64,000 nt of DNA from Streptomyces albus subsp. albus (GTDB lineage Bacteria > Actinomycetota > Actinomycetes > Streptomycetales > Streptomycetaceae), in assembly GCF_000725885.1 (NCBI RefSeq), contig NZ_JODR01000004.1, positions 186,001 through 250,000 on the forward strand, given 5' to 3'. Shown here one piece after another: positions 18,422 to 31,809 of this stretch. The first letter of the stretch is position 1. Every line of letters begins with the position of its first letter. The notes beneath the pieces were generated by a model that saw only the letters and a program-made list of their open reading frames with translations, made no database searches and was not told the DNA's origin. The position numbers and the translations under genes are program-made.

Positions 18422-18455
18422 TCTGGACTTGCCCTGCTGGCCCGGCCCGTGGAGG

Positions 18456-18788
18456 GGACCATCCCCGCAGGTGCGGGGAGCACAGGTGTGGCCGGAGTCG
18501 CCGGAGACGCGGATCGGGACCATCCCCGCACGTACGGGGAGCACCCCGTCGCCTTCGACGATCCCCGCACCGCGCTGGGACCATCCCCGCACGTACGGGG
18601 AGCACCCGGTGGTTGCACACCGGGCGGAAGGGGCGCAGGGACCATCCCCGCACGTACGGGGAGCACACCACCGCCAGGAGCACGGGCACACAGCGCGTGG
18701 GGCCATCCCCGCAGGTGCGGGGAGCACGCCCACGTCCATGTCAGGTCATCGACGGCGAGGGGACCATCCCCGCACGTGCGGGGAGCAC
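18456..18788 (-). CRISPR. type I-E CRISPR array, 6 repeats and 5 spacers
   Basis: Six 28-base repeats start at 18456, 18517, 18578, 18639, 18700 and 18761, separated by five spacers of exactly 33 bases. Transcribed from the leader at 18789 towards the tRNA, each repeat starts GTGCTCCCCG and contains a CCCCGC/GCGGGG stem, typical of type I-E in Streptomyces. Variants: the repeats at 18517, 18578 and 18639 share a GTAC centre; those at 18456 and 18700 share another; the one at 18700 has one further change near the 3' end. The spacer at 18545-18577 contains ATCCCCGCAC, a fragment identical to part of the repeat. Confidence 0.97.
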
Positions 18789-18859
18789 ACTCGGTGACCT
18801 GCGGGTTTATCCGTTGCCGGTGGCCGTGGGATTCACTTTCATTGAATGGTGCATACCTC
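18789..18859 (-). promoter_or_regulatory. leader of CRISPR array 1
   Basis: This A/T-richer stretch next to the repeat at 18761 is repeated, in opposite orientation, before array 2 (28225-28294) with roughly 85 percent identity. The last 33 bases, including the start of the repeat, are identical. It should hold the array promoter and the signals for new spacer insertion. Confidence 0.85.
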
Positions 18860-19014: not shown

Positions 19015-21912
19015 GTGGGGGAGAAAGTACGGGGGCGGCTCGGTAAGCGGCTGTCCCCGGGGGCGCGCGCGGCGTGGGCCAAGTCGTCCTATGCGGATGA
19101 CGGTTACCTACCCCTCTGGCGGCACATGTCCGACAGCGCTGCCACGGCCGGGCTGCTCTGGGACCGGTGGTTGCCCGAGCAGGTGAAGCGCCTCGTTGCC
19201 CAGGCCCTTCTCGGTGGGTTCGCCGACGCCCGTGCCTTGGCCGTATGGCTCGCCGGGGTGCACGACGTTGGGAAGGCGACGCCGGCGTTCGCCTGTCAGG
19301 TGGAGCCGCTGGCGGAGAAGATGCGCCGGGCGGGTCTGGCGATGCCGACCATGCGTCAGTTCGGGGAGGACCGGCGCATGGCTCCGCACGGGCTTGCCGG
19401 TCAAGAGATCCTGCAGGACTGGCTCGTTCGGGCACATGGCTGGAACCCTCGCCGCGCTGCCCAGTTCGCTGTCGTCGTCGGGGGCCATCACGGCGTTCCG
19501 CCTGATGCCGCGCAGGTGATGGATGTCCGCGCTCATCCCCGTCTGCTGCGCACTCCGGGAGAGAGCGAAGCGCTCTGGGCCGCCGTGCAGACGGAGTTGC
19601 TGGAGGCGTGCGCGGACGACTTCGGCGTACGGGAGCGGCTGGCGGACTGGCGGTCGGTGCGCCTGCCGCAGACGGTCCAGGTCGTGTTGTCCGCGTTGGT
19701 GATCATGGCCGATTGGATCGCGAGCAACCGGGACTTGTTTCCGTACGGCGTGGACGGCACGGACGGCGCGAGTGCGCGTACGGACGAGGAACGGGTGCTG
19801 GCCGCGTGGGAGGGGCTGGGCCTGCCCGGTCCGTGGCAGGCCCAGGAGCCGACCGGCACGCCTGAGGAGTTGTTCGCTTCCCGTTTCGCCTTGCCCGACG
19901 GTGCACGTCCCCATCCCGTGCAGCGGGCCGCCATCGATCTGGCCCGCCGCATGCCGGGCCCCGGCCTCATGATGATCGAGGCCCCGATGGGCCGGGGAAA
20001 GACGGAGGCCGCGCTCGCGGTGGCCGAGATCTTCGCGGCCCGGAGCGGAGCGGGCGGGTGCTTCTTCGCGCTGCCGACGATGGCGACCGGCAATGCGATG
20101 TTCCCCCGGGTCCTGGACTGGTTGGAGCGCTTGCCCGATGCCCAGGGCCAGCGGCTGACCGTGGGCCTGGTGCACTCGAAGGCCGCGTTGAACGAGGAGT
20201 ACCAGGAGCTGCGCAGCCGGGGGCGTCAGCAGATCGCGGCAGTGGATATGGACGGCGACGCGGGCATTCCCCGACCTGGCTCCGAGAAACGGGAGGCTCC
20301 GGCGGGGCTGGTGGCGCACCAGTGGTTGAGCGGCCGGAAGAAGGCCATGCTCTCGTCGTCCGTGGTCGGCACCATCGATCAGCTCCTCTTCGCCGGGCTG
20401 AAGAGCCGGCACCTGGCGCTGCGGCATCTTTCCGTGGCCGGGAAGGTCGTGGTGATCGACGAGGCGCACGCCTTCGACGCGTACATGAATGAGTACCTCG
20501 ACCGGGTGCTGTCCTGGCTCGGCGCGTACCGGGTGCCGGTGGTGGTGCTGTCGGCAACGCTGCCGGCGGAGCGGCGCCGTGCGCTGGCGGAGGCGTATGC
20601 GGGACGGGCACAGAGGGCTGTCGGATTCGCGTCCGTCGCGGAAGCGGAGGACTACCCGCTGCTGACGGCCGTTTCTCCGGGTCACGGTCCGGTGCAGGAC
20701 GCCCCCGGAGATTCGGGCGGCGGTGCGCGCGTCCGTGTGGAGCGCATGGCCGACGACGAGGCAGCCCTCGCGGACCGGCTGGAAGAACTCGACGACGGTT
20801 GTGTGCTGGTCATCCGCAATACCGTTCCGCGCGTGCTGGAGACGGCGCGGGTCCTGCGGGAGCGGTTCGGGGACGACACGGTCACCGTCGCGCACGCGCG
20901 GTTCGTCGATCTGGACCGTGCGGCCAAGGACAAGGCGCTTGTCGACCGGTACGGTCCCAAGTCCACGTCCCGGCCGAAGCGGCACATCGTGGTGGCGAGC
21001 CAAGTCGCGGAGCAGTCGCTCGATGTGGATTTCGACCTGCTGGTGACGGACCTCGCTCCTGTCGACCTGATACTCCAGCGGATGGGACGCCTGCACCGTC
21101 ATGCGCGCACGGGCCGCCCGGCCCGTCTGCGCGCCCCGCGCACCCTGGTCACCGGGGTCGAGTGGGGAGCCGCTGGGGTCCCGGAACCGGTATCCGGCTC
21201 GCAGGCCGTCTACGGGCGGCATGCGCTGCTCCGCTCGCTCGCGGTCCTGACTCCGCATTTGGACGCACCCGAGAGCCGCCCGGTACGCATCCCCGAGGAC
21301 ATCAGCCCTCTCGTCCAGACCGCCTACGGCGACGAGGAAGTCGGCCCCGCCGGCTGGGCTCCCGCTCTGGCGGAGGCGCGGCGCGCGCACGAGACCGAGC
21401 GTGCGAAGAAGAAACGAGGCGCGTCGGTATTCCGGATCGGGGAGGTCAAGAGCCCTGGGAGCCCCCTGATCGGGTGGCTCGCGGCGGGTGTCGGGGACGC
21501 GGACGACACCCGTGCCGGACGGGCCCAGGTGCGGGACAGCGAGGAGAGCCTGGAAGTCCTTGTCGTGCAGGAGCACGAGGGCGGCCGGCTCACGACGCTG
21601 CCCTGGCTCGGCAAGGGGCGTGGGGGCTTGGACCTGCCGCGTGACGCGGTGCCGACCGAGCGCGCCGCGCGTGCTGCGGCAGCATCCGCGCTTCGGCTCC
21701 CGGCCCGGCTCTCGAAGCCATGGGTGATCGATCAAGTGATCAAGGAGCTGGAGCAGTTCTACGTGGACGCGTGGCAGGCCAAAGAGAGCCATTGGCTCGC
21801 CGGTGAGCTCATTCTTCCTGTTCAGGCGGATTGTCAGACCCGCCTGGCAGGCTTGGTTCTCCGCTATTCCCAGGACGACGGGCTTGAGGTACTGCGTGAA
21901 ACCGAAGGATGA
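19015..21912 (+). CDS. cas3: CRISPR-associated helicase/nuclease Cas3 (type I-E)
   Basis: A 965-residue Cas3 that is recruited by Cascade to unwind and cut target DNA. The N-terminal HD nuclease domain shows VHDVGKA (His83, Asp84), a later His in APHGLAG and GGHHGVPP. The superfamily 2 helicase domain shows Walker A PMGRGKTE (Lys329), DEAH at 482-485 (VIDEAHAFD), SATLP at about 513 and a motif VI region QRMGRLHRH. All key residues appear intact and the length is normal. GGAGG precedes the GTG at 19015. It is first in the cas operon; cas8e starts five bases after its stop. It is the first gene beyond the array 1 leader. Confidence 0.97.
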   Translation: MGEKVRGRLGKRLSPGARAAWAKSSYADDGYLPLWRHMSDSAATAGLLWDRWLPEQVKRLVAQALLGGFADARALAVWLAGVHDVGKATPAFACQVEPLAEKMRRAGLAMPTMRQFGEDRRMAPHGLAGQEILQDWLVRAHGWNPRRAAQFAVVVGGHHGVPPDAAQVMDVRAHPRLLRTPGESEALWAAVQTELLEACADDFGVRERLADWRSVRLPQTVQVVLSALVIMADWIASNRDLFPYGVDGTDGASARTDEERVLAAWEGLGLPGPWQAQEPTGTPEELFASRFALPDGARPHPVQRAAIDLARRMPGPGLMMIEAPMGRGKTEAALAVAEIFAARSGAGGCFFALPTMATGNAMFPRVLDWLERLPDAQGQRLTVGLVHSKAALNEEYQELRSRGRQQIAAVDMDGDAGIPRPGSEKREAPAGLVAHQWLSGRKKAMLSSSVVGTIDQLLFAGLKSRHLALRHLSVAGKVVVIDEAHAFDAYMNEYLDRVLSWLGAYRVPVVVLSATLPAERRRALAEAYAGRAQRAVGFASVAEAEDYPLLTAVSPGHGPVQDAPGDSGGGARVRVERMADDEAALADRLEELDDGCVLVIRNTVPRVLETARVLRERFGDDTVTVAHARFVDLDRAAKDKALVDRYGPKSTSRPKRHIVVASQVAEQSLDVDFDLLVTDLAPVDLILQRMGRLHRHARTGRPARLRAPRTLVTGVEWGAAGVPEPVSGSQAVYGRHALLRSLAVLTPHLDAPESRPVRIPEDISPLVQTAYGDEEVGPAGWAPALAEARRAHETERAKKKRGASVFRIGEVKSPGSPLIGWLAAGVGDADDTRAGRAQVRDSEESLEVLVVQEHEGGRLTTLPWLGKGRGGLDLPRDAVPTERAARAAAASALRLPARLSKPWVIDQVIKELEQFYVDAWQAKESHWLAGELILPVQADCQTRLAGLVLRYSQDDGLEVLRETEG

Positions 21913-21916
21913 GCGC

Positions 21917-23563
21917 GTGAGCCACGTAGACGCGGACGCCGCGTCGTTCGACCTGACGTGCCGGCCGTGGGTTCCCGTGCAGATGCTGGACGGGCGCGAG
22001 CACTTGCTGTCGCTGCGCGAGGTGTTCGAGCAGGCGGACGGGATCCGCCGCCTTGCCGGGGACATCGCCACGCAGGACTTCGCCCTGACACGGCTGCTGT
22101 TGGCGATACTGCACGACGCGCTCGAAGGGCCGCGTGATGTCGACGAGTGGGCTGAACTCTGGGAGGCGGAGCAGCCGTTCGGCCCGATCGACGGCTATCT
22201 GGACGAACACCGTCAGCGGTTCGATCTCCTCCATCCGAAGACGCCTTTCTTCCAGACGCCTGGACTGCGCACCGCGAAGGGCGAGGTGTTCTCCCTCGAC
22301 CGGATCACCGCCGATGTCCCGAACGGCGTGCGCTTCTTCACGATGCGCGCCCTGGGGGCTGAGCGGCTCTCCTTCGCCGAGGCGGCGCGCTGGGTAGTGC
22401 ACGCCCAGACGTACGACACCTCGGGCATCAAGACGGGGGTGGAAGGCGACCCGAGAGCGAAGAACGGAAAGGTGTACCCGCAGGGCGTCGCCTGGAGCGG
22501 CAGCCTCGGCGGCGTGCTCGCCGAAGGCGGCACACTGCGCAGGACGCTGCTGCTGAACCTGGTGGCAGCCGAAGCCGATGTCGTCACCGTCTCGGACGAG
22601 GACAAGCCCGCGTGGTGCCGTCCGGTCCCCGAGCCCGGCCCCGCGAAGGACGTGGCGGAGCGTCCGTACGGCCCCTGTGACTTGTACACGTGGCAGTCGC
22701 GCCGCCTGCTGCTGCACCACGACGAGGACTGCGTACACGCCGTCGTCCTCACCTACGGTGACCCGCTCACGCCCCAGAACCGGCACAAGGCCGAGCCGAT
22801 GACCGGTTGGCGGCGCAGCAAACCGCAGGAGAAGAAGCTCGGTCAGCCGCTGGTGTACATGCCCCGCGAGCACGACCCGGCGCGGTCTGCCTGGCGCGGT
22901 CTGGCCTCGCTCCTCGCTCCTCGCGCTCTGAGCACCGCCTCCGCGAGAGATGCGGCGAACGAGCTGCGCCCCGGTGTCGTCCATTGGCTCGCCCAGCTCA
23001 TGGTCGACGGAGTCCTGCCGCAGGAGACCCTGATCCGGCTGCGTACGTACGGCGTCAAGTACGGAACGCAGCAATCGGTGATCGACGAAGTCACGGACGA
23101 TTCCGTCGCCATGGCCGTCGTGCTCCTCCACGAGGACGACTCGGCTCTGGGCCGGACCGCCCTCGACGCCGTCGGGGACGCCGATGCGAGTGTCCGTGCG
23201 CTCGGCGACCTCGCCCGCGACCTGGCGCTGGCAGCGGGCAGCGACCCCGGCACGCGCCAGGACTCGGCCCGTGAAGCGGGCTATGACGCCCTGGACACGG
23301 CCTTCCGCGACTGGCTGAGCCGGATCCGTCCGGGCGACGAACCCGAGCGGATCCGTACCGAGTGGCAGCGGACGGTGCGCCGGATCGTCAAGGACTCGGC
23401 CGGGGTTCTGATCTCTGCCGCAGGCGAAGCCGCCTGGGCGGGCCGGACCGTCGCCACCAAGCACGGCGAACGGCACTACGACGCCGCTCTCGCCGACCGC
23501 CTCTTCCGGATCCGACTGCGCAAGGCCCTCCCCCTCGCTCACGACTCCGAGGACCCCTCATGA
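21917..23563 (+). CDS. casA: Cascade large subunit Cas8e (Cse1/CasA)
   Basis: A 548-residue Cas8e, the Cascade subunit that recognises the PAM and helps recruit Cas3. The start SFDLTCRPWVPVQMLDG and the segment FDLLHPKTPFFQTPGL are typical of Cse1. The C-terminal third is predicted helical (four-helix bundle). The GTG at 21917 is used rather than upstream starts because AAGGA lies just ahead and upstream sequence belongs to cas3. Its stop overlaps the cse2 start as ATGA, the coupling pattern expected in this operon. Confidence 0.95.
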   Translation: MSHVDADAASFDLTCRPWVPVQMLDGREHLLSLREVFEQADGIRRLAGDIATQDFALTRLLLAILHDALEGPRDVDEWAELWEAEQPFGPIDGYLDEHRQRFDLLHPKTPFFQTPGLRTAKGEVFSLDRITADVPNGVRFFTMRALGAERLSFAEAARWVVHAQTYDTSGIKTGVEGDPRAKNGKVYPQGVAWSGSLGGVLAEGGTLRRTLLLNLVAAEADVVTVSDEDKPAWCRPVPEPGPAKDVAERPYGPCDLYTWQSRRLLLHHDEDCVHAVVLTYGDPLTPQNRHKAEPMTGWRRSKPQEKKLGQPLVYMPREHDPARSAWRGLASLLAPRALSTASARDAANELRPGVVHWLAQLMVDGVLPQETLIRLRTYGVKYGTQQSVIDEVTDDSVAMAVVLLHEDDSALGRTALDAVGDADASVRALGDLARDLALAAGSDPGTRQDSAREAGYDALDTAFRDWLSRIRPGDEPERIRTEWQRTVRRIVKDSAGVLISAAGEAAWAGRTVATKHGERHYDAALADRLFRIRLRKALPLAHDSEDPS

Positions 23564-24225
23564 CAGCTTCCGCAGCCTCGACAACCCCTTCGCGCCGTGG
23601 CCTGGAGGTGATCGGCGAACTCGTGCTGGCGGAAGTGTCCCGGTTGCAGGAGGGTTACCGTCGCGACCGCTCTGCGGCCGTCAGCAGCCTCGCGCGACTG
23701 CGCCGGGGCGCGGGCCGCGCGCCCATGAGCACTCCCGATCTGTGGGGCCTGATCGACCTCGCCCCGCTCCACGACGCCGACTGCATGCGCGGCGAGGAGG
23801 CCATGGAGCACGCCCAGAACGCGGTGTTCGCGACCCTGGCTCTCTACGCCCTGCATCAGCAGTCCCGCAGCGACGGCATGCACACCAACAGTCGCGCCGG
23901 TGAACTAGGCCGCGCTGTACGGCGGTTGATGCCCGCCGGGCAGCTTGACGAACCGATCCGTAAACGCTTCGTACGGACCGGCGCAGCCACCGACTTCGTC
24001 ACCCTCACGGTGCGCCTACGCGAACTGGTCAGCCTGCTGCGCCGCGACGGCATCCCGCTCGACTACGCGCTGCTGGCCGAGCAGTTGTACCGCTGGCAGC
24101 GCCCCGGAGGCCGCCAGGCCGTACGCCGGTCATGGGGCCTCTCGTTCCACGCCGCCCAGCCTCGTCCGGGTGACGGCGACAGCACCGACTCTTCGCAGAA
24201 CCCCCCGGAGGACAACGCCCAGTGA
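23560..24225 (+). CDS. casB: Cascade small subunit Cse2 (Cas11, CasB)
   Basis: A 221-residue Cse2/Cas11, the helical small subunit present in two copies along the Cascade belly, where it stabilises the R-loop. The central LARLRRGAGRAPMSTPDLWGLI and the HQQSRSDGMH segment fit the family. An acidic disordered tail (GDGDSTDSSQNPPEDN) ends the protein. Start and stop overlap the neighbouring genes: ATGA with cas8e and four bases (GTGA) with cas7e, indicating tight translational coupling. Confidence 0.93.
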   Translation: MTASAASTTPSRRGLEVIGELVLAEVSRLQEGYRRDRSAAVSSLARLRRGAGRAPMSTPDLWGLIDLAPLHDADCMRGEEAMEHAQNAVFATLALYALHQQSRSDGMHTNSRAGELGRAVRRLMPAGQLDEPIRKRFVRTGAATDFVTLTVRLRELVSLLRRDGIPLDYALLAEQLYRWQRPGGRQAVRRSWGLSFHAAQPRPGDGDSTDSSQNPPEDNAQ

Positions 24226-25547
24226 ACAGCCGCCGCCTCATCCTCGACGTGCACGCCTTGCAGAACGTCCCTCCGAGCAACCTCAACCGGGACGACACCG
24301 GCGCGCCCAAAACCGCCGTCTACGGCGGAGCCGTGCGCGCCCGCGTCTCCAGCCAGGCGTGGAAGCGGGCTACCCGCACCTACTTCGGGAACGTGCTGGA
24401 CCCGAGCGAGCTGGGAGTGCGCACCAAGCGCGTGGCCGAGCTCCTCGCCGGCCGGATCACCCGGCTCGATTCGTCCATCGACGAGCGGGCGGCCTGGAAG
24501 CTCGCGGTGGCCGCACTGAAGGCCGCGGGGATCAAGGAGATCAAGCCGCCGCAGCGCAAGGCGGACGAGGCCAAGAAGAACGGTGGTCCGGAACCCGCGC
24601 CGGAGTCCGAGTACCTGCTGTTCCTCAGTTCGCACCAGGTCGGCGCGCTGGCGGAACTCGCGGTCGAGGGCGCAACGGACATCGATGCCTTCCTCAAGGT
24701 CAAGGAGAACAAGGCGCGGGCCAAGAAGGCGGCAGACAGCCGGCACTCCATCGACGTCGCCCTGTTCGGGCGAATGATCGCGGACTCCGCCGACCTCAAC
24801 GTGGACGCCGCCACACAGGTCGCGCACGCCCTCAGCGTCCACCAGGTCGCGAACGAGTCCGACTACTACACAGCCGTCGACGACGAAAACCGGGAGGAGG
24901 AGACCGGCGCCGGCATGATCGGCACCGTCGACTTCAACTCCGCCACCCTCTACCGCTACGCAGCAGTCGACATCAATCTGCTGGAGAAGAACCTCGGGCA
25001 GTCCCTCGACGAGAGCGACTCCCCCGCCACGCCGGTCCGCCGCGCCGTCGAAGCCTTCCTCGACGGCTTCGTCTCCTCCCTGCCCAGCGGAAAGATCAAC
25101 ACCTTCGGCAATCACACCCTCCCGGACGCGGTCATCGTGAAGCTGCGCACCACCCGGCCGATCAGCTTCGTCTCCGCCTTCGAGGAACCGGTCACCGCCG
25201 ACCGCGAGTCAGCGGGGGGCCACATGCGCGGCGCCGCCGAGCGGCTCGCCGCGTACATCCCCCGGATCGAAGCAGCTTACGGCGACGAGGATTCCACCCG
25301 GACCTGGGTGCTGCACGTCGCACCGGCGGTGGAGAAGCTGGCCGGTCTCGGCACCGAGGCCCCCAGCTTGAAGAAGCTTGTGGCCGCCGTCGGCGCGGCC
25401 GTCGCCGAGAAGCTGGACGAGCTGCCGGAGCGGCGCGGATCATCAGCGTGCTCACCCTGCTGCTCGCCGGACCGCTCCAGTCCTGGGGCTCCTCCGCCCG
25501 CTTCGCCCGCCGCACCACCGAGAACGCCCCCACCAAAAGCGGCGTGA
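24222..25547 (+). CDS. casC: Cascade backbone subunit Cas7e with read-through tail
   Basis: Cas7e forms the six-copy backbone that holds the crRNA. The start NSRRLILDVHALQNVPPSNLNRDDTGAPK and the GRMIADSADLNVDAATQVAHALSVH segment are strongly family-like. The reading frame is 441 codons, but only the first 407 look like Cas7e; the last 34 (from SSACSPCCSP) are Pro/Ser/Cys-rich and overlap the start of cas5e by 100 bases. At 25442-25445 the sequence reads ATCA where an ATGA stop-start overlap is expected. One G-to-C change at 25444 would explain loss of the stop. The backbone domain itself is complete; whether the tail disturbs assembly is unknown. Confidence 0.92.
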   Translation: MNSRRLILDVHALQNVPPSNLNRDDTGAPKTAVYGGAVRARVSSQAWKRATRTYFGNVLDPSELGVRTKRVAELLAGRITRLDSSIDERAAWKLAVAALKAAGIKEIKPPQRKADEAKKNGGPEPAPESEYLLFLSSHQVGALAELAVEGATDIDAFLKVKENKARAKKAADSRHSIDVALFGRMIADSADLNVDAATQVAHALSVHQVANESDYYTAVDDENREEETGAGMIGTVDFNSATLYRYAAVDINLLEKNLGQSLDESDSPATPVRRAVEAFLDGFVSSLPSGKINTFGNHTLPDAVIVKLRTTRPISFVSAFEEPVTADRESAGGHMRGAAERLAAYIPRIEAAYGDEDSTRTWVLHVAPAVEKLAGLGTEAPSLKKLVAAVGAAVAEKLDELPERRGSSACSPCCSPDRSSPGAPPPASPAAPPRTPPPKAA

Positions 25548-26170
25548 TCGGTCTCCTCGCAGCGGCCCAGGGCATACACCGGGATGACGAGGAGGGGCTC
25601 GCTCGTCTGGCGAGCCTCCGGTTCGGCGTGCGCATCGACCAACCCGGCACCCGGCTGCGTGACTTCCAGACCGCGCACCATGCCGACACGGACGAGCCCG
25701 CGCCGGTGTCCGAACGCTTCTACCTCTGCGACGCGGTGTTCCTCGCCGCTGTGGAAGGCCCGCACGAGCAGCTCACCGAACTGCACACGGCCCTGTGCCG
25801 CCCCGAGTTCCTGCCGTATCTCGGCCGCCGTTCGTGCCCGCCGGCCGAGCGGATCCCGCGCGAGGTGCACGCCGACACACGCCTGGAGGATGTCCTGCGC
25901 TCCACCCCCTGGCTCGCCTCCTCATGGCACCGGGAGCGCACGTGGTCCAGGCAGGAGTCCGTGGACCTGGCCATCCTTGTCGAGAGTGCCGGCAAGGAGC
26001 AGGCGGCCAAGGGCGACACCGTGCGCGACCAGCCGCTCAGCTACGACCCCCGGCATCGGCGCTACGCCCTGCGCACCGTGCACGCCACGTCGACCACCAT
26101 CCCCCATCCGCAGGCGAAGACCGACCACGATCCGGTCAGCCATCTCGGGGAAGCCCTCGGAGAAGCCTGA
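25448..26170 (+). CDS. casD: Cascade subunit Cas5e (start codon altered)
   Basis: A 240-residue Cas5e, which caps the 5' handle end of the crRNA in Cascade. LTLLLAGPLQSWGSSARFARRTTENAPTKSG contains the family hallmark GPLQSWG followed by the RRTT and PTKSG motifs. The expected start is ATG-AGC-GTG, but ATG is replaced by ATC at 25442; the first usable start is the GTG at 25448, two codons later. The ribosome site GGAG (25427-25430) is well spaced for the lost ATG and 17 bases from the GTG, so expression may be reduced. The stop overlaps cas6e (TGATG). Confidence 0.92.
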   Translation: MLTLLLAGPLQSWGSSARFARRTTENAPTKSGVIGLLAAAQGIHRDDEEGLARLASLRFGVRIDQPGTRLRDFQTAHHADTDEPAPVSERFYLCDAVFLAAVEGPHEQLTELHTALCRPEFLPYLGRRSCPPAERIPREVHADTRLEDVLRSTPWLASSWHRERTWSRQESVDLAILVESAGKEQAAKGDTVRDQPLSYDPRHRRYALRTVHATSTTIPHPQAKTDHDPVSHLGEALGEA

Positions 26171-26910
26171 TGAGCCTGGCGCCCATGTACCTGACCCAGT
26201 TCCGGCTGAACACGGCCCGCGCCGGAGCCCGCAAACTGCTCTCCTCTCCGCAGGCCATGCACGCCGCCGTGATGTCCTCCTTTTCGGAGCCACCCGCCAC
26301 CGAGGGCGAAGCCTCCTCGCCGCGGGTGCTGTGGCGCCTCGACCGCAACGCACGGTCGGAGGTACGCCTCTTCCTCTCCAGCCCCGCCCGCCCCGACCTG
26401 ACGCACCTGGTCGAGCAGGCCGGCTGGCCCGCCGTAGCAACTCCCGGAGCCCCCGGTTGGAAAACGTACGACTACGGCACGTTCCTCGCCCGGCTCGACA
26501 AGGGCAGCACCTGGGATTTCCGTCTGACAGCGAACCCTGTGCACTACGCGCGCACCAAAAAGGGCCAGAAGAGCACCAAGCGCACCGCCCACCTGGTGCC
26601 CGAATACCAGCTCCAATGGCTGCTCGACCGCCAGGACAGGGGTGGGTTCCGCGTCCTCGAAAAGCCGCCGGAGAGGCGCCATGTGCAGCACGGCGACGAG
26701 TACCAGTGCGTCGTACGCGAGCAGCGCAACCTGTCCTTCCACAAGCGCGGAAACGACGACCGCGTCCAGCTCTTGGCCGTCACCTACGACGGGCGCCTGG
26801 AGGTCACCGACCCCGACGCGCTCCGTGCGCTCCTCACCCGTGGCCTCGGCAAGGCGAAGGCGTACGGCTGCGGGCTGATGACCCTCGCCCCGACACCCCA
26901 GGGGAGCTGA
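26170..26910 (+). CDS. casE: crRNA endonuclease Cas6e
   Basis: A 246-residue Cas6e that cuts the repeat hairpin to release crRNAs and remains bound to the 3' handle. The catalytic His candidate is His31 in QAMHAAVMSSF. The RNA-binding glycine-rich loop GLGKAKAYGCGLMTLAP is near the C-terminus, and VLWRLDRN is typical of the first ferredoxin fold. The ATG overlaps the cas5e stop by one base. Six bases separate its stop from cas1. Confidence 0.95.
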   Translation: MSLAPMYLTQFRLNTARAGARKLLSSPQAMHAAVMSSFSEPPATEGEASSPRVLWRLDRNARSEVRLFLSSPARPDLTHLVEQAGWPAVATPGAPGWKTYDYGTFLARLDKGSTWDFRLTANPVHYARTKKGQKSTKRTAHLVPEYQLQWLLDRQDRGGFRVLEKPPERRHVQHGDEYQCVVREQRNLSFHKRGNDDRVQLLAVTYDGRLEVTDPDALRALLTRGLGKAKAYGCGLMTLAPTPQGS

Positions 26911-26916
26911 ACGCAC

Positions 26917-28224
26917 ATGGGCACCATCAAAACCCGTACCCGCTCCTCCCCCAGAGAACTCCCCCAGATCTCGGACCGGATCTCTTTCGTCTATCTGGAG
27001 CGCTGCACCGTCCACCGGGACGCCGGCGCCATCACGGCCGAGGATGCCGAAGGAACCACACACATCCCTTCAGCCACCATCGGCACCCTGCTCCTCGGCC
27101 CCGGCACCCGCGTCACGCACCAGGCCATGAGTGTCCTCGGCGAGTGCGGGGCCAGCGTGGTCTGGGTCGGCGAACACGGGGTCCGCTACTACGCACAGGG
27201 CCACGGACTCACCCGCTCCGCCGCCCTCGCCGAAGCCCATGCCGACCGCTGGGCGAACCGCCGCACCCGCCTGGACACCGCCCGCGCCATGTACCGACTG
27301 CGGTTCCCCCGCGAGGATCCCGCCGGACTCACCCGCCGGCAACTCCTCGGCCGCGAAGGCGACCGCCTCAAGGAGTGCTACCGGAACGAGGCCAAGCGCA
27401 CCGGCGTCCCCTGGCACGGACGCCACTACACTCCCGGCGACTTCGCCTCGGGCGACCCCATCAACCAGGCCATCACCGCCGCCGCCCAGTGCATGTACGG
27501 CGTCGCCCACGCCGTATCAGCCGCTGTCGGATGCATCCCGGCACTCGGCTTCGTCCACTCCGGGCACGCCCACTCTTTCATCCCCGACATCGCCGACCTC
27601 TACAAGACAGAGGTCGCCATCCCAGCCGCCTTCGACACTGTCGCGGAAGACGACATCGACGTCGGATCCCGCACACGCCGCGCCCTGCGCAACCGCATCC
27701 ACCAAGACCGCCTCCTCGACCGGTGCGTCCGCGACATCTTCGGCCTCCTCCTGCCGGACACCGCCGCCGCGGGGGCCGAAACGGCAACAAGCCTCTCGAC
27801 CGACTCCGTCAAGCTCCGCACACGACGGAGAAGTACCCGGCGGCCTCAACCACGGCGAGGACCCCATCTGGTGACCGTCATCGTCCTCACGAACTGCCCC
27901 GCCGCGCTACGAGGCTTCCTCACCCGCTGGCTCCTCGAAATCTCCCCAGGCGTCTTCATCGGCCGCCCCTCCGCCCGCATCCGCGACCTCCTCTGGGACG
28001 AAGTCACCCAATACTCCGGCAAGGGCCGCGCCCTCCTCGCCCACACAGCCGACACCGAGCAGGGCTTCACCTTCCGCACCCACGACCACGCCTGGCACCC
28101 CACCGACCACGAAGGCCTCATCCTCATCAACCGCCCCAAGCCCCGCCTCTCCCCGAAGCCACCACCGACGACGGGTTGGAGCAAAGCGGCGAAGCGACGC
28201 CGGTTCGGCGGGGGACCGAAATGA
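26917..28224 (+). CDS. cas1: Cas1-Cas2 fusion (adaptation integrase)
   Basis: A single 435-codon frame joins Cas1e (residues 1 to about 301) to Cas2e (319-435). Cas1e catalytic residues Glu147, His214, Asp224 and Asp227 are present with the same spacing as E. coli Glu141, His208, Asp218 and Asp221. The joining segment, 302-318, is TRRRSTRRPQPRRGPHL and is out-of-frame translation of the normal Cas1 end: one frame over, the same DNA reads HDGEVPGGLNHGEDPIW and a stop at 27872-27874. That stop would overlap the cas2 GTG. An extra base near 27820 explains the fusion. The product may work as a tethered integrase, or Cas1 may be damaged; sequence alone cannot decide. Confidence 0.93.
   Translation: MGTIKTRTRSSPRELPQISDRISFVYLERCTVHRDAGAITAEDAEGTTHIPSATIGTLLLGPGTRVTHQAMSVLGECGASVVWVGEHGVRYYAQGHGLTRSAALAEAHADRWANRRTRLDTARAMYRLRFPREDPAGLTRRQLLGREGDRLKECYRNEAKRTGVPWHGRHYTPGDFASGDPINQAITAAAQCMYGVAHAVSAAVGCIPALGFVHSGHAHSFIPDIADLYKTEVAIPAAFDTVAEDDIDVGSRTRRALRNRIHQDRLLDRCVRDIFGLLLPDTAAAGAETATSLSTDSVKLRTRRRSTRRPQPRRGPHLVTVIVLTNCPAALRGFLTRWLLEISPGVFIGRPSARIRDLLWDEVTQYSGKGRALLAHTADTEQGFTFRTHDHAWHPTDHEGLILINRPKPRLSPKPPPTTGWSKAAKRRRFGGGPK
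27871..28224 (+). CDS. cas2: Cas2e (in-frame C-terminal part of the fusion, own start)
   Basis: A 117-residue Cas2e, the dimeric structural partner that bridges two Cas1 dimers during spacer integration. VTVIVLTNCPAALRGFLTRWLLEISPGVFIG is the classic E-type start, followed by FTFRTHDHAWHPTDHEGL. An internal GTG with GAGGA nine bases upstream could still start Cas2 independently of the fusion. A basic C-terminal extension (about residues 90-117) is longer than in E. coli Cas2. The stop is immediately followed by the array 2 leader. Confidence 0.88.
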   Translation: MTVIVLTNCPAALRGFLTRWLLEISPGVFIGRPSARIRDLLWDEVTQYSGKGRALLAHTADTEQGFTFRTHDHAWHPTDHEGLILINRPKPRLSPKPPPTTGWSKAAKRRRFGGGPK

Positions 28225-28294: not shown

Positions 28295-28373
28295 GTGCTC
28301 CCCGCGCATGCGGGGATGGCCCCGCGGTCGGCCACGTAAAGGCGTACGCGAAGGGGGTGCTCCCCGCGCCTGC
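28295..28373 (+). CRISPR. CRISPR array 2 remnant: one repeat, one spacer, broken repeat
   Basis: A full 28-base repeat at 28295-28322 (stem CCCCGC-GCAT-GCGGGG, a variant not found in array 1), a spacer of about 34 bases, then GTGCTCCCCGCGCCTGC at 28357-28373. After this the sequence departs from the repeat. The array appears cut short by deletion or decay. Confidence 0.85.
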
Positions 28374-28485
28374 CACCGAACGGTTCCTCGCGCGGGCGAG
28401 GCTCGGCACCGGGACCACTTCAACGCATCAGTCCGCCGCGCAGGCTCCTCACCCGTCGCCGCTCGGCAGTCGATCAAACACGACG

Positions 28486-29220: not shown

Positions 29221-29794
29221 GTGAACACCGACCTGGACCGCGGGCTCATCACCACCGCAGGAGAGTTCGTCGTCGACTCCTGGGAGGTTCGAGCGTGCCC
29301 CGAAAACGGACTGGTCGGCGGCGACGATCGCGCCGGACTCCCGCACCGTGGCCGTGCTCCGCGCGCACCGGGAGCGGCAGGCGGCGGAGCGGGAGGAGTG
29401 GAACCGGCACGCGGCCGAGGAACGGGCCAAGGGGAAGGACACCGCCGACCGGGTGGACACCAGGAAGGAATTCACCGACGCCGACGGCCCTGGCTGCACC
29501 CGGAGAAGGTCAGCGAAGAGCTCCGGTGCGTCTACCCGGCGGGCCGGCCTGCCGCCCATCCACCTGCGGGATCTGCGGCACTGCGCGGCGACGCTCATCC
29601 ACGCCGGCGGCGGAGACCTGCGCGCGATCAAGGAAGCGCTGCGGCACGGCACGGTCCAGCTCGCGTCGGACACGTACACCTCGCTCCTGGAGGAGGTCGA
29701 CCGGGAGATCGCCGAGCGGGCCGCGGCCGTCGTTCCGCGCGCCCGTCGGAGTGAAGAGAACGGGGTGCGTGAGCGCGGCCGGTCCGGCGGGTGA
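29221..29794 (+). pseudogene. tyrosine integrase remnant
   Basis: C-terminal catalytic half of a phage/AICE-type tyrosine recombinase, broken by several frameshifts. Segments in order: VNTDLDRGLITTAGEFVVDSW; then, after a shift near 29293, APKTDWSAATIAPDSRTVAV; then WLHPEKVSEELR in another frame (from 29491); then, after about 29527, AGLPPIHLRDLRHCAATLIH, the box II motif with its HxxR, and TYTSLLEEV with the nucleophilic Tyr. The N-terminal and core-binding parts are absent. It lies about 220 bases from the right attachment copy, where an element integrase is expected. It cannot make an active enzyme. Confidence 0.85.
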
Positions 29795-30051: not shown

Positions 30052-30492
30052 GCAGCAGGGCCCAGCAGAAACGTTCCGGGCCGGGACGCACGAAGGGCGT
30101 CCCGGTGACGGGGCGCCCGTTTTCGGGCGCGGCGGTCGTCGCCGCTGTACGCAGGTCCTCACCCGTCCGAGGTATCCGTCGGTCCCCGGCGGAGCGCGAG
30201 GCGCCGTGCGCGCCGCACCTCGTATGGTGCGCACCCCCTCCGCGCGCCCCCGGCGCCGGGCACCGCCGCCGCCCGAGACGGCAGCCTGAGGCAACCATCC
30301 GGGGCTACGGAGGCGGGCGGGACAGGGGCGGTCCGTGTGGCTGACGTGGCGTCAATTCCCTGCGTATCGACGGGCGGAGACGTACAACCCCCTGGCGGGC
30401 CAAGGTGTCTTACTGGGTATCCGACGCATCAAGCCCATGCCACCAATGCCTCGGATTCGACCGTTATTCGGCAAAGAGGGGGACAAATCACC
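30052..30492. other. non-coding stretch with hairpins
   Basis: No convincing gene. CCGGGACGC/GCGTCCCGG (30081-30105) and GCGCCCG-TTTT-CGGGCGC (30113-30130) are two hairpins just beyond the attachment copy, probably former tRNA terminators. The right part should hold the promoter of the secreted protein gene at 30493. Confidence 0.5.
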
Positions 30493-31029
30493 ATGCGTTC
30501 GACTCGTTTCTCCAAGGGGACACTGGCTGCCGCGACCGCGGCGCTGGTGCTGCTGCCCGCCGGTGCGGCGTACGCGGGCAGCGGGCCCGCCACCCCGCCC
30601 TCCCAGTCCCAGAAGCTGACCCGCTCCACGGCTCCCTCCCCCGAGGGGAACCCGGCGAGCAGGCTGGCGCAGGCCGCGGGTGTCTGTGACGACGCGGTGC
30701 CGATCGGCGAGCGCGGCCTGATCAAGCGGGGCTCGGAGACGATCGCCTCCGTCAAGCAGTTCTACTCGAAGAAGTGCCAGCTCAACTACGGCTACGTGTG
30801 GGTGTGGGAGAGCTTCCGCAAGACGGCGGCGCCCTACGACGTGACGGCCGGGGTCTACAGCTACTCGAAGGACACCGTCTACGCGCCGAAGGCGTGGAAG
30901 GCCACCAAGCAGCAGGAGTTCTGGACCGAGGGCGCCGCGACGGTGACGCACTGCACGTCCGGCATCGGCTCGCTGCGCCCGGCGGGCAGCCCGCAGGCCT
31001 ACCAGGCGTTCTCGCAGAAGCGCTGCTGA
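30493..31029 (+). CDS. secreted four-cysteine protein, copy 1
   Basis: A 178-residue exported protein. Residues 1-28 form a signal peptide (RSTRFSKGTLAAATAALVLL ending AYA-GS). After a Ser/Pro-rich linker, the mature domain has VCDDAVPIGERG, VKQFYSKKCQLNYGYVWVW, a THC and a C-terminal ...QKRC. GAGGGG precedes the ATG. The gene at 31276 encodes a paralogue with the same cysteine positions, and a terminator lies between them. The GSVKQFYS-C pattern recalls secreted DUF2690-like proteins, a weak resemblance. The four conserved cysteines suggest two disulphides; the function is unknown. Confidence 0.82.
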   Translation: MRSTRFSKGTLAAATAALVLLPAGAAYAGSGPATPPSQSQKLTRSTAPSPEGNPASRLAQAAGVCDDAVPIGERGLIKRGSETIASVKQFYSKKCQLNYGYVWVWESFRKTAAPYDVTAGVYSYSKDTVYAPKAWKATKQQEFWTEGAATVTHCTSGIGSLRPAGSPQAYQAFSQKRC

Positions 31030-31118
31030 TCCGCAGGCCGGCGGCGCCGGGCGGCAGCGGTGGCGGCCTGTGCCGTTCCGGGTGCCGGCCGGTGGTGCCG
31101 TCCCGGGTGCCAAGGGAG

Positions 31119-31152
31119 CGGGCCCGGCGTCACGTTGGTGGCGCCGGGCCCG
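31119..31152 (+). terminator. terminator between the two secreted-protein genes
   Basis: CGGGCCCGGCG and CGCCGGGCCCG form perfect 11-base arms over a 12-base loop and are followed by TTTCG. The two paralogues are therefore likely separate transcripts. Confidence 0.8.
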
Positions 31153-31275
31153 TTTCGAACGACCCGCCGTAGCCCGGCAATACCCGCCGTGGGCGCGCAG
31201 GGACTTTACCGTGATGCCCGGTCCGGGCGATATGTCCGGAAAAGTCCCACTCTCCCTCAAGGAGGAGACAGACTC

Positions 31276-31809
31276 ATGCGCACCCTCTCGCCCGTCAAGG
31301 GCGCCCTTGTGGCGGCAGCCTGCGCGATGGCGCTGCTGCCCGCCGGCGCGGCCCAGGCCGGTGACAGCACCGCCGGTCCGGCAGCGGACAGCGGCGCGTC
31401 GCCCATGAACGTGCAGGACTCGGACGACAACCCGTACGGCGAGGCCGCCGAGCGGGCCCGCGTGTGCAACGACGCCTACCAGATCGGCAAGACCGGCTAC
31501 ATCGTCCGCAAGGGCCAGCGGATCGGCTCGGTGAAGCAGTTCTACTCGCCGCGCTGCAACCGCAACTACGGCTACCTCTACGTGTGGAAGAGCTTCCGCC
31601 AGAAGCACCGGTACTACTCGACCAACATCGCCGTCTACGACTTCAACACCAAGAAGCTGGTCGGGCTCCGCGTGTGGAACCGCACCTCGCAGGCGTCGTT
31701 CTGGTCGTACCCGGCCAACACCGTCCGCCACTGCACCGCGGCCCGCGGCGTCATCCGCGCCCCGGGCGACGTCAAGCAGAACTTCGCGTACTCCTCGAAG
31801 CGCTGCTGA
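31276..31809 (+). CDS. secreted four-cysteine protein, copy 2
   Basis: A 177-residue paralogue of the protein at 30493. The signal peptide is RTLSPVKGALVAAACAMALL ending AQA-GD. The mature domain repeats the pattern: VCNDAYQIGKTGY, GSVKQFYSPRCNRNYGYLYVW, RHC and a final SKRC. The extreme C-terminal Cys is conserved in both copies. It has a strong AAGGAGG ribosome site (31259-31265). The domain is rich in Tyr, Arg and Lys, giving a basic extracellular protein. A long perfect hairpin follows the stop. Confidence 0.82.
   Translation: MRTLSPVKGALVAAACAMALLPAGAAQAGDSTAGPAADSGASPMNVQDSDDNPYGEAAERARVCNDAYQIGKTGYIVRKGQRIGSVKQFYSPRCNRNYGYLYVWKSFRQKHRYYSTNIAVYDFNTKKLVGLRVWNRTSQASFWSYPANTVRHCTAARGVIRAPGDVKQNFAYSSKRC

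Follow-up and report, generated by a model that had tools for sequence, protein, structure and literature searches.

The window analysed here is a 64,000-nucleotide stretch of Streptomyces albus subsp. albus DNA carrying a type I-E CRISPR-Cas operon in which cas1 and cas2 are read as one open frame. The question raised by this locus is whether the frame encodes a Cas1-Cas2 fusion that still inserts spacers, or whether it is the trace of a lesion that happened to leave the frame open.

The fused frame and its occurrence

The single open frame at 26917-28224 on the forward strand has 435 codons and joins a type I-E Cas1 to a Cas2. The Cas1 portion, residues 1-300 in the original frame, lies at 26917..27816 (+) and matches TIGR03638 (Cas1e) over residues 13-278 with an E value of 3e-98 and 328.4 bits, above the curated cut-off of 215.6 bits over the domain. 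The Cas2 portion begins at the former cas2 GTG and lies at 27871..28224 (+); it matches TIGR01873 (Cas2e) over residues 321-403 (E 5e-18, 65.0 bits, cut-off 33.15) and PF09707 (E 1.8e-30, 105.3 bits, cut-off 24.7). Both families are thus recognized above their curated cut-offs despite the fusion, and the description given in an earlier, sequence-only reading, of one frame coding for Cas1e and then Cas2e, is correct. Translated in full, the frame would yield one polypeptide of about 48 kDa. Structure prediction for this polypeptide gave a mean pLDDT of 56, with moderate values in the Cas1 core and values below 50 for residues 282-333 and 339-433, from an alignment of 31 rows that were all Cas1 proteins except the fused protein P0001; this result speaks neither for nor against a fusion that folds.

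Four residues of the Cas1 part, which we take to be those of the E. coli Cas1 active site, are intact, as had been claimed. Glu147 (27355..27357, +) and His214 (27556..27558, +) are both conserved in 80 of 80 relatives, and the stretch Asp224-Ile-Ala-Asp227 (27586..27597, +) contains the other two, conserved in 79 and 80 of the 80, respectively.

The same 435-residue fusion is found in P0001, which differs at four of 435 positions (T8P, I22M, P223L and I402T, with the window residue first) and has an identical linker between the two parts. P0001 is the representative of a cluster of 28 sequences; the fusion is counted here as two sequences, the window and P0001, and the frame is open in both. 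The contig of the window is 288,811 bp long, and the longest contig of P0001 is 2785 bp. Because the genome is a draft of 7.63 Mb in 104 contigs, a faulty read or assembly might be suspected in the window, but the identical fusion and linker in a non-identical sequence speak against such an error, as does the frame change itself, for which a miscount of one base is an improbable cause. An error is therefore hardly credible as the source of the fusion.

Besides P0001, no other Cas1-Cas2e fusion was found among 201 long candidate proteins of 239-761 residues, scored with the Cas2 part in a search that needs shared words and thus has distant subtypes outside its reach. Three of the 201 matched: P0001, a DnaQ-Cas2 protein (P0121) and one protein covering 29% of the query. 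In a survey of the cas1/cas2 junction, the 103 distinct loci besides the window likewise gave no fused cas1-cas2. Comparison with homologues thus gives P0001 as the only other case, which makes the fusion unusual for type I-E; a natural fusion would be expected to be kept across relatives, and this one was seen only in the window and P0001. The sequence of the shift site has 0 exact matches in the viral contigs searched. In the open-licence PMC literature neither a frameshift in a Streptomyces type I-E cas1 nor a type I-E Cas1-Cas2 fusion was found, an absence that says little; the accessible parts of PMC9595627 and PMC7694759 do not deal with Cas1-Cas2. As far as these protein, locus and literature searches reach, a type I-E Cas1-Cas2 fusion is new.

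The frame change and the displaced Cas1 tail

The former C-terminal tail of Cas1, HDGEVPGGLNHGEDPIW followed by a stop, is now in the +1 frame at 27821..27874 (+). Its TGA (27872-27874) overlaps the cas2 GTG (27871-27873), exactly as the sequence-only reading had it. The interval that holds the frame change, 27817..27832 (+), is 16 nt long; in relatives it is 21 nt, or 18 nt in two of them.

The junction survey gave 121 rows, which were reduced to 104 distinct loci. One locus with no cas2 match (L053) had been left out beforehand, and two broken relatives, L023 with a shifted tail and L042 with an early stop, were kept among the 104. The tail pattern was matched in 99 loci and missing in the window (L001), L002, L042, L115 and L119. 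The conserved Leu-to-Val spacing of the tail is 7 codons (21 nt) in 96 of the 99 matched loci and 6 codons in two; in the remaining one, L019, the pattern overshot and the spacing is 7 codons by eye, as it also is in L002, L115 and L119. A spacing of 5 codons, which an ancestor would need for a one-base insertion to give the present interval, was found in none of the 104 distinct loci. Since such an ancestor was not found, the interval is more simply accounted for if 5 nt (or 2) were lost on balance, which fits better than the insertion. The single extra base near 27820 that had been proposed earlier is thus unlikely, and the origin of the fusion by a shift of frame is confirmed.

Cas1 ends in Trp in 101 of the 104 distinct loci, and the same short overlap between cas1 and cas2 is found in 97. 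In the window this tail with a Trp end at the cas2 overlap, a feature of actinobacterial type I-E, is out of frame. A frame change has displaced a conserved part of the protein, as is characteristic of a pseudogene.

The linker between the two parts, residues 301-318 at 27817..27870 (+), consists of what used to be the Cas1 tail, now translated in another frame. It is arginine-rich, as had been stated, with Arg at 8 of 18 positions. The same stretch read in the cas2 frame of 75 relatives contains 35% Arg, near the value in the window, and the third-position GC of the linker drops to 0.44, compared with 0.86 on both sides. For these two reasons the linker is best described, on sequence grounds, as an out-of-frame reading and not as a designed linker. 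Third-position GC alone does not single out the old frame, as it is 0.78 in the old frame and 0.76 in the third.

The +1 frame still holds the whole tail with its stop, so that ribosomal frameshifting, whether programmed or tolerated, could in principle give a separate, tailed Cas1 in addition to the fusion. Inspection of 27817-27832 by eye, however, showed no slippery sequence, and the arrangement is found in 0 of the 103 other loci, where the interval is longer by 5 nt (by 2 nt in two). Frameshifting of this kind is extremely unlikely.

A fused frame is easily formed at this junction. Upstream of cas2, the reading frame of this gene has no stop for 55 nt or more in 71 of 96 relatives, and in 17 of the 96 it stays open for 850 nt or more, so that a shift of suitable phase will mostly fuse the two genes. 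Where stop and start codons overlap in a GC-rich operon, such a shift thus often leads to a long joint frame, as it would at this site in 71 of the 96, and finding one does not by itself show that the fusion protein is functional. Broken cas1 genes in which the frame is changed, as in the window, were seen in four relatives, chosen for an odd match pattern from the 114 genomes, out of 392, that had a match at all; they are examples and do not give a rate. G359 (L123) lacks part of the Cas1 core and has a shifted frame, and its cas1 start opens a frame of 395 codons that takes in the whole of cas2; this is the only relative shown to have a broken cas1 reading into cas2. In G250 (L125) the shift is in the middle of the gene, inside the core, and in G060 (L023) it is the tail that is shifted. 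The cas1 of G138 (L124) is broken near residue 211, with the core hit. The break thus lies inside the Cas1 core in G138, G250 and G359, whereas the core is spared in the window. G138 was considered as a second run-on from cas1 into cas2 and was rejected, as the DNA shows a stop after 217 codons.

Condition of the operon and the second cas6-cas1-cas2 set

The genes cas3, cse1, cse2, cas7, cas5 and cas6 precede the fused frame in the usual order, all on the forward strand. Profile matches identify cas3 with its HD and helicase domains (19015..21912), the open frame of cse1/casA (21803..23563) and cse2/casB (23560..24225, start approximate). They are followed by cas7/casC (24222..25547), the coding region of cas5/casD (25439..26170) and cas6/casE (26170..26910, start approximate). 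The frames of cas3, cse1, cse2, cas5 and cas6 appear whole.

The cas7 frame, with 441 codons, continues past its expected end into cas5. At the junction (25439..25450, +) the overlap of cas7 stop and cas5 start seen in relatives is absent; it has been lost at about 25442-25445, a second damaged junction that was not part of the sequence-only reading. All 75 relatives compared have a stop in the cas7 frame at this junction, and the window has none there. The cas7 genes of the relatives end at their own stops from 30 nt before to 6 nt after the junction in 74 of 75, and about 1 kb early in the other one; none runs on. In the window cas7 runs 108 nt, about 34 codons, beyond the junction, to 25547. 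The window cas5 is left without its usual start, and would have to use the nearest in-frame one, the GTG at 25448-25450.

Two CRISPR arrays flank the operon. The one upstream of cas3 (18455..18797, reverse strand) has 6 repeats with a spacing of 61 nt, not all of them identical. Downstream of cas2 there is only a remnant at 28296..28375 (+), with one whole repeat, one spacer and one broken repeat. The number of repeats on the cas2 side in 69 relatives ranges from 0 to 72, and five of the 69 have one or none, counted with one core pattern that may undercount other repeats. The reduction of this array had likewise gone unremarked. The fragment at 29348-29794, about 1 kb past the broken array, looks like the end piece of a tyrosine recombinase, with a match to PF00589 that stays below the cut-off (E 0.002). 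Two adjacent small proteins at 30337-31029 and 31060-31809 seem to be related to each other and have apparent signal peptides by eye; neither has a Pfam match.

Departures from conserved sites, defined as columns conserved at 95% or more, were counted for each protein in a dereplicated set, with distance matching by nearest neighbour; cas3 was left out because there were too few whole homologs. Cas1 departs at 9 of 129 conserved sites, a number reached by 0 of 27 relatives, with one relative as the distance-matched control. Cas7 departs at 7 of 142, a number reached by 0 of 49 relatives, with six distance-matched controls; both control groups are small. Cas2 (1 of 54), Cas5 (1 of 72) and Cse2 (0 of 35) are ordinary in the same set, and Cse1 (5 of 147, with 4 of 58 relatives as high) and Cas6 (3 of 84, with 12 of 63 as high) are within range. 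In the full set the window Cas1 has 11 unusual residues, of which 10 are common to P0001; these shared departures may reflect divergence of the lineage rather than decay. The eleventh, Pro223 (27583..27585, +), is unique to the window and adjoins the catalytic Asp224, a change not mentioned in the sequence-only reading. The residue at this position is Leu in 76 and Met in 4 of 80 relatives, and Leu in P0001. The fused Cas1 allele bearing Pro223 would be expected to be impaired.

The genome contains one cas7e and two cas1 genes. The second cas1 belongs to a cas6-cas1-cas2 set on contig C24 (L127/L128, G000:C24:17926-20162), to which the earlier reading made no reference. It is unfused and full length, with 317 residues and an intact tail. 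The array at this locus has three repeats, two of them degraded, and no effector genes were found near the set in the 34 kb examined. Two further CRISPR arrays in the genome, G000:C40:36087-36354 with 5 repeats and G000:C56:5422-5567 with 3 repeats, have a repeat core that ends in GGGGTTGG, unlike that of the window. In all, 14 Cas1 entries, found on 41 contigs, share 98-100% identity with the Cas1 of the second locus. Two Cas1e variants, P0132 and P0136, are nearly identical to the Cas1 of the second locus; the longest contig is 8,009,885 bases for both, and they are perhaps two copies in one genome.

The presence of the second set allows for a division of labour, in which the fusion provides Cas2, either as a domain or by a fresh start at the old GTG, and the integrase is formed with Cas1 from the second locus. 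The full-length Cas1, Cas2 and Cas6 of that locus are in line with this, as are the GAGGA 9 nt before the GTG at 27871 and the better conservation of Cas2 than of Cas1 in the window. The second locus has its own Cas2, however, so that nothing needs to be supplied, and its repeats are few and partly degraded. Such a division of labour is very doubtful.

The best explanation of the fused frame is gene decay, a frame-shift lesion in a worn type I-E locus that happened to leave the frame open, and we put its probability at roughly 0.7. The worn appearance of the locus, with its damaged cas7/cas5 junction, a Pro beside a catalytic Asp and a nearly empty array, leads to this reading. On this account a few nucleotides were deleted among the last codons of cas1e in a Streptomyces type I-E operon, which moved the reading frame into that of cas2e; because the cas2e GTG overlaps the cas1 stop, the two genes would then have become one open frame. 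The resulting protein would be without the conserved C-terminal tail of Cas1. In E. coli, according to the available excerpt of PMC10011333, the incoming DNA has its PAM-side end covered by this tail up to the moment of integration. If the tail of the Streptomyces protein acts in the same way, its loss would upset PAM retention or orientation even with a working core, and adaptation from the window locus would probably be impaired or dead. The intact second set may have eased selection on the Cas1 of the window.

Some observations count against decay. Both parts of the protein still match their families, the active-site residues of Cas1 have been kept, the fused frame is open in the window as well as in P0001, the frames of cas3, cse1, cse2, cas5 and cas6 appear whole, five of 69 relatives also have one repeat or none after cas2, and the broken cas1 of G138 stops at 217 codons, short of cas2. 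The intact type I-E system of S. avermitilis, as far as the available text of PMC4762764 describes it, has strong interference and weak spacer acquisition; a short or quiet array is therefore no proof of a lesion. As a lesion the fused frame would be ordinary, yet it would provide a natural experiment in which the Cas1 core is intact but for the tail and is joined to Cas2.

Possible activity of the fused protein

The alternative to decay is an active tethered integrase, which would form the usual complex of four Cas1 and two Cas2, carry the surplus Cas2 on flexible linkers and still insert spacers. The family matches and the intact active site of Cas1 are compatible with this, the conserved sites of Cas2 are ordinary, and the fusion is common to P0001, which keeps Leu223. 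Against it stand the loss of a tail that still ends in Trp in 101 of 104 loci, Pro223 in the window allele, the second damaged junction at cas7/cas5 and the almost empty array on the cas2 side. The fusion also fixes Cas1 and Cas2 at 1:1, whereas their ratio in the adaptation complex is 2:1. An active tethered integrase is thus unlikely. Quite unlikely, too, is its more specific form, a tethered type I-E integrase that would be expressed and insert spacers without the PAM-guarding tail, perhaps with altered PAM choice or orientation. If active, the fusion would imply that the tail and a separate supply of subunits are dispensable in type I-E, and it could serve as a one-gene spacer recorder. 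The earlier suggestions of an active fusion, or of frameshifting to make both forms, found no positive support: the tail is lost, the changes in Cas1 are unusual, cas7/cas5 is damaged and the broken cas1 of G359 also runs on into cas2.

A further point in favour of a tethered integrase is a natural Cas1-Cas2 fusion protein in the type I-A system of Thermoproteus tenax, which interacts with other Cas proteins, as stated in the available parts of PMC3497052 and PMC3513311. It resembles the protein of the window in having Cas1 and Cas2 in one polypeptide. In contrast to the window, where the system is of type I-E and the fusion has arisen by a frame shift, the T. tenax system is archaeal and of type I-A; the two are likened here by description. 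The idea of a Cas1-Cas2 fusion is, going by these descriptions, already known, and the view that a tethered fusion would be unusual stands for type I-E, with a precedent in type I-A.

The S. avermitilis system is similar to that of the window in that its eight type I-E cas genes are flanked by an array on either side (PMC4762764, in the portion available), and the window Cas1 is 71% identical to P0097, a protein named as being from S. avermitilis. In that system, as described there, cas1 and cas2 are separate, whereas the window has them in a single frame, with loss of the Cas1 tail. Fusions of a type I-E Cas2 to another domain are also represented by the Cas2-DnaQ (DEDDh) proteins (P0121; PDB 8fy9). 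In these the exonuclease lies behind Cas2, whereas in the window Cas1 lies before it; the Cas2 match in 8fy9 covers chain residues 3-112 of 289.
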